This document shows positions 52,349-63,253 of a DNA stretch of 64,000 nt, in pieces. Position numbers and translations under genes: made by a program. The DNA is from Cristatella mucedo. Taxonomy: Eukaryota; Bryozoa; Phylactolaemata; Cristatellidae. The notes beneath the pieces are model-generated. The model was given only the letters and a program-made list of their open reading frames with translations, was not told where the DNA came from and ran no database searches. Every line of letters begins with the position of its first letter. Position 1 is the first letter of the stretch. The DNA lies in NCBI GenBank assembly GCA_009760855.2, contig WPIO01000118.1, positions 656,001 through 720,000 on the forward strand, read 5' to 3'.

Positions 52349-52429
52349 CGGAAAGCAAACTCCGAAATGCCGAGTCCACGTTCGTCGCATCCAGGGCTGA
52401 CGTCTCAATGAACAAGCAGCCCAGCTGCT
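52349..52429 (-). CDS. Rab11 paralogue coding exon 5
   Basis: Acceptor GTTGCAG, donor TCCG|GTATGC, 81 nt as in gene 1. Encodes [19 protein letters not shown] (the Glu codon spans the junction) then SAFRSLLS. The G5 box is intact. Reading through the donor stays open for about 90 codons but into sequence with no Rab similarity. Confidence 0.9.
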
Positions 52430-61400: not shown

Positions 61401-63253
61401 TGCGCTGCCGTGCCCTACGGCTGCACATATGGCGTCGCATCTCTCCAGCAGGGGGCACATATGATGCCAAGCTGAGCCTTACTGTGGCAGCTGACGGTGC
61501 AGCTAATGGCACAGGTGCTAGCACAGCAGTATATCGCATAAAGCAAGCAGCAGCCACCTAAGGACTTGAGCTGCTTTTGCTGCGAAGAAATGGAAAGTAG
61601 GAGGGCATACTACAAGGTGGCACAGCCCAGGCCACCTCATGCTGGGGCTGCTGTACCTGTAGCTACTGCTGCTATTGCTGCCATCTCGACAGCTTCGATA
61701 CGAAAGTTAAGTGAGAGAGCTGACAACGTTGCAGGTGGAAGGTATGAGAGTAATCAATACTATGGTGGTGACATTTATCGAAAACGGCAGAGTCAAGCTT
61801 CACCATCTAAAATTCCAGAGCCTTGTCTGAGACACTTGGACAGTGATGCTGTAAAGGTGTGGCGAAGAGCTGAGACTTCCTGCAGTGCAACTCAGCTCGG
61901 GGCTCGATATCAAATGTAAGGCACGGCATGCTAGTCAGTACTGTGATACCATAGGCGGACAGAAGCTGGAGGCACAAGGTTCTGCAGCTGAAGAGCTTGA
62001 GACGTCGTAACAAAGAGGGGGTCAGGGGGTCCGTGGGCTCATGAATTTGTGGCTAGCATCCACAGTTTACCTAGACGTGTTGAGGCCTCGTTAAGATTGA
62101 CAGCATTTAGTGTATCCCTGTGATTCGTCCTTCATGTGCTTATGCGTGCTGACACTGTGCATGCTACCACTAACCACTTTTGCATGCTGACCCTATGCAT
62201 GTCACCTCTAACCATGTTATTCATGTTGTTTGTTTATCAAGCATGATATTACTCACCATTCAATTGCATTTCCCTTTGCAGCAAATGTAAAGCGCCTAAA
62301 AGGGATTGAGTTCTCCGAGGGCGCTTTATCAAGTGCATTATTATTAAGATCGATACCGAATGGCTACCGCCCAGAAGTGCCACAAATAGCAGGATAGGAA
62401 TGGCACCGACCTTTGGCAGCCAGCTTTGTAAAAACCACAGCAGCACGACTACCGGCATGCGCTACAATCCCTAAAGCTGGTGCTTGTGATCCACTAACCA
62501 GGGGCCATCTTGAGTACGTAAGCAGTCTCGAAGTACGAGCGGGTGCTCACTAGATTTGTGACTGCTCATTTTTGGGCTGCTTAGCGCTACACTATTCGGC
62601 TGACGATTTGAGATACATTTTAGTCATTTAACTAGCAGGGACTGAAAACAGAGAAGTTCCGGCTTTCAAACACATTTTAGACAAACATTTAAATACGCAA
62701 GGTCAGACTTCGCCCTGACTATATGGAAATATGCTGCAAAATACACAATTCGACGGAATGTCAGTTCAAATATTCGAACCAGATGGGCGAGTAATCACGG
62801 TAGCAGTACCATAGCTTGGAAGAACTCGCCGAAGCCACTATGCTGAGGGTCATAAAATCATGCACAGAACCAGCAGCCGACCAGAGCAGCTGTCGACGGC
62901 CAGCATCGTACTTTCGCATTGGGTGGGTACTTCCCTATGATCGCCTAGCCGGTCTTGCCGCTTCGTAGAATCACTGGGGGTTAATATTCCAGGAAAATAT
63001 TTCTTTTAACACGATGAGGCCCTTTGGCGCTATCCAATGAGCTCAAAGCTGACCCTGCAGAGTTTACAGAAGCTCGCTATGAAGCGGAAGTTTGAGTAAA
63101 CAGATCGCACCCCAAGGGGTCCTCGCGCACCAAAGGCAGGAAGACCCCAACACAGGAGCAAGATGCCTGGCAAAATCATTGCTAAATTTCGAAAGCTGCC
63201 AACCGCTAATGCTCACCCTTAAATACGTGGTCATATTTGTCAGCTTCACACAT
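52349..63253 (-). CDS. divergent Rab11 paralogue (five secure exons, 3' end unresolved)
   Basis: Minus-strand exons 63253-63217, 59026-58915, 53632-53549, 52913-52720 and 52429-52349 have the same lengths and phases as the first five Rab11 exons of gene 1. They give 169 codons plus one base with no stop or frameshift and GT-AG at each junction. The fold motifs remain: GKS (22-24), Thr42, Asp65, Gly68 and ETSAL (151-155). Regulatory residues differ: Ser19Leu and Gly20Ala in the P-loop, TIGVEF to TVNVNL (42-47), Ala67Cys, Gln69His, and Lys124Arg in NKxD. Gln69 matches Ras Gln61 and Ser19 matches Ras Gly12, both sites where change slows GTP hydrolysis. I infer a diverged Rab11-like GTPase with altered cycling and partners. 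The terminal exon with the membrane anchor is not secure. It lies upstream of gene 1 in the same orientation: a tandem duplicate. Confidence 0.88.
52720..52913 (-). CDS. Rab11 paralogue coding exon 4 (NRSD)
   Basis: Acceptor GCCCTAG, donor GCAG|GTCGGC, 194 nt as in gene 1. Encodes [39 protein letters not shown] and [14 protein letters not shown] and AVPTDEAR tie it to Rab11. NKSD has become NRSD. Confidence 0.92.
52975..53017. repeat. perfect 15-bp inverted repeat around CTG units
   Basis: Arms AGGAGCTCGAGCTGC and GCAGCTCGAGCTCCT enclose a 13-base CTG-repeat loop. In intron 3 of the Rab11 paralogue, about 60 bases from the exon 4 acceptor. Confidence 0.9.
53419..53477. repeat. (AC)n microsatellite
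   Basis: About 29 AC units about 70 bases downstream (minus-strand sense) of exon 3 of the Rab11 paralogue. Confidence 0.97.
53549..53632 (-). CDS. Rab11 paralogue coding exon 3 (DTCGHE)
   Basis: Acceptor CATTGTAG, donor CTCGC|GTAAGT, 84 nt as in gene 1. Encodes [20 protein letters not shown] followed by RFRSVILA. The catalytic Gln is replaced by His69 while Asp65 and Gly68 remain. Confidence 0.9.
54240..54350. repeat. polypurine tract
   Basis: GGAGAAGGAGCAGGTGGAGG-type units over about 110 bp in intron 2 of the Rab11 paralogue. The minus-strand proline-rich frame over it is composition-driven. Confidence 0.8.
55130..58731 (+). mobile_element. LINE-A (L2-like), near full length, inactivated
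   Basis: Best copy of the dominant LINE, in intron 2 of the Rab11 paralogue and antisense to it. 55346-55723 holds the typical start region ([13 protein letters not shown], then basic residues). 55724-56545 encodes a broken apurinic-type endonuclease: [22 protein letters not shown]. 56696-58498 encodes a 600-residue reverse transcriptase block with [36 protein letters not shown], a mutated YAND box at 57635-57646 (normally YADD) and [10 protein letters not shown] conserved C-terminal domain ([33 protein letters not shown]) follows. The 3' UTR ends in a hairpin and ATT repeats. Frame breaks near 55.72, 56.02, 56.5 and 56.69 kb and the Asp-to-Asn change mean it is dead. The 5' boundary is uncertain. 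Confidence 0.9.
58779..58838. repeat. (CA)n microsatellite
   Basis: About 29 CA units about 80 bases from the exon 2 donor of the Rab11 paralogue. Confidence 0.97.
58915..59026 (-). CDS. Rab11 paralogue coding exon 2 (altered P-loop and switch I)
   Basis: Acceptor CGTTGTAG, donor ATTGG|GTATGC, 112 nt as in gene 1. Encodes [18 protein letters not shown], then TRNEFKVE and [15 protein letters not shown] is a Rab11 signature. The RabF1 block IGVEF reads VNVNL here. Confidence 0.88.
59101..60192. other. intron 1 sequence of the Rab11 paralogue, unassigned
   Basis: No repeat or domain recognised. Confidence 0.45.
60193..60360 (-). mobile_element. LINE-A tail with embedded CT microsatellite
   Basis: AATAATAATA...GTGCCCTACGAGAGCTAGAT, then about 100 bp of CT, then AGTACTTTAA. 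This is the inverted hairpin tail with its CTCTTTCT segment expanded. Confidence 0.65.
60234..60334. repeat. (CT)n microsatellite in LINE-A tail
   Basis: About 50 CT units within the inverted LINE-A hairpin tail. Confidence 0.97.
60575..60705 (-). mobile_element. LINE-A 3' tail
   Basis: Inverted hairpin tail (GCACCCTCAGAGAACTCAAT) and the start of the 3' UTR only. Confidence 0.75.
60790..61180 (+). mobile_element. LINE-A/B-related C-terminal fragment, diverged
   Basis: Encodes [28 protein letters not shown], RVCSSI and [14 protein letters not shown] blocks corresponding to the C-terminal domain. More diverged than the other copies; family uncertain. Confidence 0.6.
61220..61390 (+). mobile_element. 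foldback family fragment
   Basis: GAGTTATAGAATTTACAAGG, CTGTTTACAAGTCACAAGTA and ACTCAGCAAGTTAGGTACAA match the proximal right arm. In intron 1 of the Rab11 paralogue. Confidence 0.65.
62094..62346 (+). mobile_element. LINE-A 3' UTR
   Basis: Begins at ACAGCATTTAGTG and includes the whole 3' UTR, hairpin and ATT tail. Close to the 26 kb and 58 kb copies, so probably a young subfamily. Confidence 0.85.
62347..63216. other. 5' part of intron 1 of the Rab11 paralogue
   Basis: No repeat or domain recognised. Confidence 0.45.
63217..63253 (-). CDS. Rab11 paralogue coding exon 1
   Basis: Encodes [12 protein letters not shown] plus one base, donor AAGG|GTGAGC. Length (37 nt), phase and donor match exon 1 of gene 1. 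Y7, D8, F11 and K12 are conserved; DDEYDYL has become ADKYDHV. Confidence 0.85.

Follow-up and report, generated by a model that had tools for sequence, protein, structure and literature searches.

Rab11 steers membrane traffic and is highly conserved in animals, and its function is thought to need both a guanosine triphosphate (GTP) cycle and a lipid anchor. Rabs that depart from this scheme are already known, each in its own respect: Rab25-type proteins lack the catalytic glutamine, Rab24 has been described as having low GTPase activity and poor prenylation, and the RabL proteins have no prenylation site. Expansions of Rab11 itself are known from plants and oomycetes (PMC3425129). Here we describe a tandem cluster of Rab11 genes in the bryozoan Cristatella mucedo, one member of which, gene B, has neither the catalytic glutamine nor C-terminal cysteines and appears to be a genuine gene that has taken on a new role, not a dead copy. 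The window is a 64,000-nucleotide stretch (positions 656001-720000 of contig C20, WPIO01000118.1, in a 572-Mb genome assembly); the reading was extended by 110 kb to one side of it and by 30 kb to the other, giving 204 kb in all, and coordinates are those of the window unless prefixed C20. Four Rab11 genes, A-B-C-D, lie in tandem on the minus strand of the contig, A and B within the window and C and D outside it. A first-pass annotation, made from the letters of the window, had presented B as a tandem paralogue of A; the tandem arrangement stands, and the two further members of this strand, outside the window, had been overlooked.

Gene B spans 16.1 kb of the minus strand, from 63253 to 47147, and its six exons encode 196 amino acids (Table 1). 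The first five exons had been reported to match gene A in length (37, 112, 84, 194, and 81 nucleotides) and phase, and the agreement is exact to the base, with GT/AG dinucleotides at all gene B junctions. When joined, these exons form 169 codons free of stops, and the encoded protein is as heavily substituted as had been claimed, with 98 of the 169 residues identical to those of gene A. A tblastn search of the window with human Rab11A recovers four of the five exons with E values of 9e-24 to 8e-06, far past chance, whereas the 37-nucleotide exon 1 is below the size detectable by tblastn. The gene extends beyond the five exons originally noted to a sixth, which was located through the tail of the orthologue P0001 described below. 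Among the phase-1 frames starting behind an AG in the 17 kb scanned, this exon has an ungapped score of 74 with the P0001 tail, and the runner-up has a score of 19. Similarity to the tails of A and D gave chance-level matches for exon 6 of both B and C, in a scan that recovered those of A (score 55) and D (57). A candidate exon 6 at position 48800, ending in CCxxx (score 7), was dropped because frames ending in cysteine motifs score equally elsewhere in the 204 kb. A single ATTAAA, which has the look of a polyadenylation signal, lies about 0.8 kb past exon 6 and is not used as evidence.

Gene B has a close counterpart in public sequence data. Searched against proteins, the 169-residue sequence of B returned 7818 matches, of which the best 120 were examined. 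The top match, P0001, is 90% identical to B over all 169 residues and forms an intact 203-amino-acid frame on a public 1532-nucleotide contig (source 'lgn'), whereas the other matches examined are at most 63% identical and mostly named Rab11 or small GTPase. When the genome was searched with the B orthologue, the best match was B itself (82% in exon 4), and those of the 44 matches that lie outside B reach at most 61%. The contigs of P0001 and of P0121, the orthologue of gene C, are most simply derived from complementary DNA, because they carry intact frames and are far shorter than the intron-bearing genes described here. Gene B thus appears to be retained in a related animal, apparently as a spliced transcript, and is probably spliced and expressed in C. 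mucedo as well.

The substitutions of B are largely shared with its orthologue. At 51 sites, A and D have the same residue and B a different one; P0001 has the B residue at 47 of them and the A/D residue at none. The B-specific sites occupy 25 of the 57 motif columns (P-loop, switch I, switch II, NKxD, and ETSA, a set chosen by hand) and 26 of the 112 other columns; the differences that separate B from P0001 fall in 3 motif columns and 14 others. Counted over the core, B and P0001 differ at 17 of 169 residues, compared with 11 of 26 in the tail (Fisher p 1.4e-4); therefore, the core is under more constraint than the tail. The gene D orthologue P0005, also among the best 120 matches, differs from D at 3 of 169 core residues and 6 of 45 tail residues, so that the core of B has diverged more than that of D between species (p 0.002). 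The description of B as fast-evolving hence suits its past, to which the shared residues belong, better than the time since the split, although the present rate is still above that of D.

Neutral decay had been expected to break the frame or a splice site, and simulation agrees. In runs started from the coding sequence of gene D, without indels and at a distance of 0.27 substitutions per site fitted for a ratio of nonsynonymous to synonymous rates (omega) of 1, the frame stayed open in 163 of 4000, and was both open and accompanied by all ten splice dinucleotides in 2 of 4000. Gene B has neither a broken frame nor broken splice sites, as a pseudogene would, and together with the intact frame of its orthologue the simulation favours the first-pass view of B as a retained gene. 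Its history was most likely an old burst of change followed by weaker but real constraint.

The residues shared by B and P0001 indicate which Rab11 functions may have been kept and which lost (numbering as in human Rab11A). Both proteins carry the changes Y10H, L11V, S20L, G21A, S42G, I44V, G45N, E47N, F48L, A68C, Q70H, Y73F, A75S, I76V, and K125R, and both keep Y8, K13, K24, S25, F36, T43, V46, W65, D66, G69, Y80, R82, N124, D127, S154, and A155. In a table of 137 relatives, made up of the best 120 matches to B and all 17 matches to gene C, P0001 is the only one to carry S20L, I44V, E47N, F48L, Q70H, and K125R, and G21A is present in three. The nucleotide-binding motifs of B comprise GDLAVGKS, the switch I threonine, DTCG, and ETSA, with a partial departure from NKxD to NRSD. 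In contrast to the Rab11 effector motifs IGVEF and WDTAGQE, B and P0001 have VNVNL and WDTCGHE, and the catalytic glutamine of switch II, present in 132 of the 137 relatives, is replaced by His70. The only cysteines are residues 2, 67, and 147, out of 196 in B and 203 in P0001, and thus neither protein has a C-terminal cysteine for geranylgeranylation. An AlphaFold2 model of P0001, computed from a 21-row alignment, has a mean predicted local distance difference test score (pLDDT) of 79.8, with 12 of 17 ten-residue G-domain blocks above 90, and is disordered from residue 179 on. Both B and P0001 start with Met-Cys, where A starts with Met-Ser and D with Met-Asn, and could conceivably be lipidated at the N terminus.

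We consider it fairly probable that B has been retained as a functional part of the A-B-C-D cluster and encodes a soluble, non-prenylated GTPase derived from Rab11, biased towards the GTP-bound state and engaging new partners. The gene would stem from a duplication on the D side of the Rab11 family. By the time of the split from the species of P0001, it would already have taken on about 47 of the 51 changes, enriched in motif columns, and lost the C-terminal di-cysteine; after the split, it would have been held under constraint. The protein would bind GTP because the P-loop lysine and serine, the switch I threonine, DxxG, NxxD, and ETSA are kept. It would hydrolyse GTP poorly because Ser20 is replaced by leucine and Gln70 by histidine, the sites of the active Rab11 mutants S20V and Q70L (PMC8091128, PMC3616983, PMC6138693). 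With no cysteine available for prenylation, B would not enter the REP/GDI membrane cycle, and the changes of Ile44, Gly45, Glu47, Phe48, Tyr73, and Ala75 would lead it to partners distinct from the usual Rab11 effectors. We infer the GTP-biased state, the cytosolic location, and the change of effectors from sequence.

Several observations weigh against this account of B. The status of P0001 as a transcript is itself read from the absence of introns. Thirty-two of the 137 relatives, several of them named isoforms, also have no cysteine in the last six residues; a missing cysteine in one prediction would by itself be weak, and the case for B builds on two sequences from two sources. Confidence in the P0001 model drops over switch I and II (blocks of 57, 69, and 61). 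Exon 6 of B ends about eight codons short of the acidic end present in P0001, which may reflect early relaxation. The comparison of nonsynonymous and synonymous change between the copies, proposed in the first-pass annotation and run in this genome, gave a branch omega for B of 0.28 when fitted on A, D, and B, and 0.38 with every branch free. This value is indistinguishable from 1 (log-likelihood, lnL, -1431.24 versus -1432.42; 2 delta lnL of about 2.4) and clearly above the omega of A and D (lnL -1439.01 under a common omega; 2 delta lnL of about 15.5). Finally, K125R of B presumably corresponds to K117R of Ras. In human disease, Ras K117R acts as a gain-of-function allele, yet in flies it partially suppressed Ras G12V (PMC10627255); therefore, the combined effect of the changes in B is not predictable. 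Pairwise omegas of 0.02-0.12 overall (0.108 for B and A, 0.117 for B and D) are not taken to prove constraint on B: they are dominated by the A and D branches, themselves under strong constraint, and synonymous divergence is saturated at 2.4 to 7.9.

The main rival to an active switch is that B would be a soluble decoy, which docks on Rab11 exchange factors of the SH3BP5 or TRAPPII type and lowers the activation of A and D instead of switching effectors of its own. The interface of Rab11 with SH3BP5 includes F36, I44, Y73, I76, F48, W65, and Y80, and the exchange is lowered more than 100-fold by K13N (PMC6138693). Residues Y8, K13, F36, W65, Y80, and R82 of B, which are named SH3BP5 contacts in the same source, are kept. 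On the effector side, both E47, a contact of WDR44 in a predicted model, and A75, whose replacement by threonine disrupts WDR44 binding (PMC9808001), are changed, as would suit a decoy. However, I44, F48, Y73, and I76 of the SH3BP5 interface are replaced by V, L, F, and V, Y10 is a histidine, and the changes of S20 and Q70 would be unnecessary for a decoy; we consider this explanation unlikely. Less probable again is that B still worked in the ancestor shared with the species of P0001 but in this genome is relaxing or has recently been inactivated. The shortened exon 6, the in-genome omega not significantly below 1, and the excess of interspecies differences over those of D would fit such a course, but the six exons, splice dinucleotides, and frame of B are all intact, and the motif columns have been conserved since the split. 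It is very improbable that B is a Rab25-like protein, that is, an ordinary prenylated Rab11 with an altered glutamine: the Rab25 sequences P0127 and P0129 also lack Gln70, having leucine instead, but keep S20, switch I, and cysteines in the terminal region, and B joins D, not Rab25, in the tree. A neutrally decaying duplicate whose frame is open by luck is strongly disfavoured and hardly credible, since the failure to reject an omega of 1 on the B branch with the in-genome A, D, and B stands against a simulation that leaves indels uncounted and still keeps frame and splice sites so rarely, and against an orthologue with the same 47 odd residues.

In the favoured reading, B, a retained and altered Rab11, has its origin elsewhere in the family than the first-pass annotation assumed, where gene A was the parent. 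Comparison of the sequences places D, not A, as the nearest relative of B, and the duplication on the D side. Identity over the 169 residues is 106 with D and 98 with A (58-63%), and of the 22 sites that distinguish A from D, B agrees with D at 10 and with A at 2. In a tree of 23 rows picked by hand, B and P0001 join D and P0005 at 90/100, which is below the starred support level of the tool, with a bootstrap not fully settled. The tree grouping and the identical lengths and phases of exons 1-5 indicate descent of B from the Rab11 subfamily. Gene D lies about 36-59 kb upstream of B, and gene A is a canonical Rab11. A further canonical Rab11, with short introns, is located on contig C682; its intron phases, compared by eye, are those of the cluster genes.

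Gene C resembles B in several respects. Its orthologue P0121 is a 223-amino-acid frame on a 1283-nucleotide contig and is 88% identical to C, at the top of 17 matches of which the next reaches 53%. Both carry S20K and Q70E, and both tails are without a terminal cysteine and have internal cysteines about 20 residues before the end, which form a CCCCC cluster in C. The branch omega of C is 0.09, and a value of 1 is rejected (lnL -1414.86 versus -1421.00; 2 delta lnL 12.3), which supports constraint on this gene. The tree does not place C safely, because long branches meet there. There are two candidates for its exon 1: one runs into exon 2 from an in-frame ATG just ahead of it, and the other is a separate, Rab11-like exon (MADENEEVFK, donor GTAAGC), one of two candidates from a scan.

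Table 1. Exons of genes B and A and positions of other features (window coordinates unless another contig is given)
Feature	Position	Strand	Length (nt)	Remarks
Gene B exon 1	63217..63253	-	37	Start codon at 63253; donor GTGAGC; length and phase as in A and D
Gene B exon 2	58915..59026	-	112	P-loop GDLAVGKS, switch I; acceptor GTAG, donor GTATGC; tblastn
Gene B exon 3	53549..53632	-	84	WDTCGHE motif; acceptor GTAG, donor GTAAGT; tblastn
Gene B exon 4	52720..52913	-	194	NRSD motif; acceptor CTAG, donor GTCGGC; tblastn
Gene B exon 5	52349..52429	-	81	ETSA motif; acceptor GCAG, donor GTATGC; tblastn
Gene B exon 6	47147..47229	-	83	Including stop; tail GILYKQAIAGDSRTSVQVAGAQAGAVI, cysteine-free; found via tail of orthologue P0001
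Gene A, whole	34885 to 15198	-		Canonical Rab11
Gene A exon 1	34849..34885	-	37	
Gene A exon 2	22618..22729	-	112	tblastn
Gene A exon 3	22376..22459	-	84	tblastn
Gene A exon 4	18916..19109	-	194	tblastn
Gene A exon 5	16974..17054	-	81	tblastn
Gene A exon 6	15198..15331	-	134	End SKCC (prenylation cysteines)
Gene C	C20:733315 to 725004 (window 77315 to 69004)	-		Just past right window edge; exon 3 of 87 nt
Gene C, separate candidate exon 1	C20:750912	-		
Gene D	C20:778142-755739	-		Exons 1-5 with lengths as in A and B; exon 6 of 137 nt; end RKCC
Canonical Rab11 (locus L029)	C682, ~1214345-1217630			End GGKKCC
LINE-like reverse-transcriptase frames	55720..58498	+		Within gene B intron 2
tRNA-Asn-like gene	44046-44125			Between A and B

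The introns and spacers of the cluster contain further features. Open reverse-transcriptase frames resembling those of long interspersed nuclear elements (LINEs) lie antisense to B within its intron 2, and similar-looking frames occur near 11.5, 25.2, 35.6, 39.3, 50.8, and 60.8 kb of the window, all recognised by eye. The tRNA-Asn-like gene between A and B stands alone and is possibly derived from a repeat. Elsewhere in the assembly, fragments matching mitochondrial COX1 are found on large contigs (C166:4375626, C83:2826-3735, C549:2641741, and C299:634220), besides the 21-kb contig C688. The mitochondrial COX1 is 95% identical to one public contig, P0138, and 77-82% identical to molluscs and other lophotrochozoans among the 119 further matches listed of 7999 scored, which suggests a lophotrochozoan from a lineage with sparse sampling.

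A retained relative of Rab11 without GTP cycle and anchor, next to intact copies, would be a natural experiment on Rab11 surfaces free of the membrane. The cluster also suggests that tandem duplication can derive strongly changed genes from a near-invariant one, with change that comes mostly early, often in motifs, and is then held. The titles and abstract openings of the literature matches listed contain no description of a Rab11-derived gene that combines all these traits, occurs in two sources, and has a companion of the same kind in its tandem cluster.

Gene B is similar to Rab11A and Rab11B in its six exons, with the phases of A and D, and its nearest solved chains by sequence are those of Rab11A. 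It differs from them in the missing terminal cysteines, in S20L, G21A, Q70H, and K125R, in the change of IGVEF to VNVNL, and in A75S. Rab25 (Rab11c) is likewise a paralogue within the Rab11 family with a residue other than glutamine at position 70; however, this residue is leucine, the P-loop and switch I are normal, a prenylation motif is present, and Rab25 forms a separate clade, so that B does not fit Rab25. Rab24 belongs to another Rab subfamily and presumably retains its C-terminal cysteine motif. The RabL proteins are separate, older families, and the Rnd and RhoH proteins are lipidated. RabL2, RabL4/IFT27, and RabL5/IFT22 share with B a G domain of the Rab type and the absence of a C-terminal prenylation site, but are partly ciliary (PMC7818423), whereas B is a derivative of Rab11 in a tandem cluster. 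In Rnd and RhoH, the natural loss of the glycine equivalent to G12 accompanies constitutive loading with GTP (PMC13236570); unlike B, which is derived from a Rab and has no C-terminal lipid site, they belong to the Rho family. Tentatively, the two conserved, non-prenylated derivatives B and C of one lophotrochozoan lineage, with S20 and Q70 replaced by leucine and histidine in B and by lysine and glutamate in C, and with different switch surfaces, may represent a soluble, permanently loaded branch of Rab proteins, which would control or counteract the Rab11 of recycling endosomes from the cytosol. Such a branch would stand to Rab as the Rnd proteins stand to Rho.

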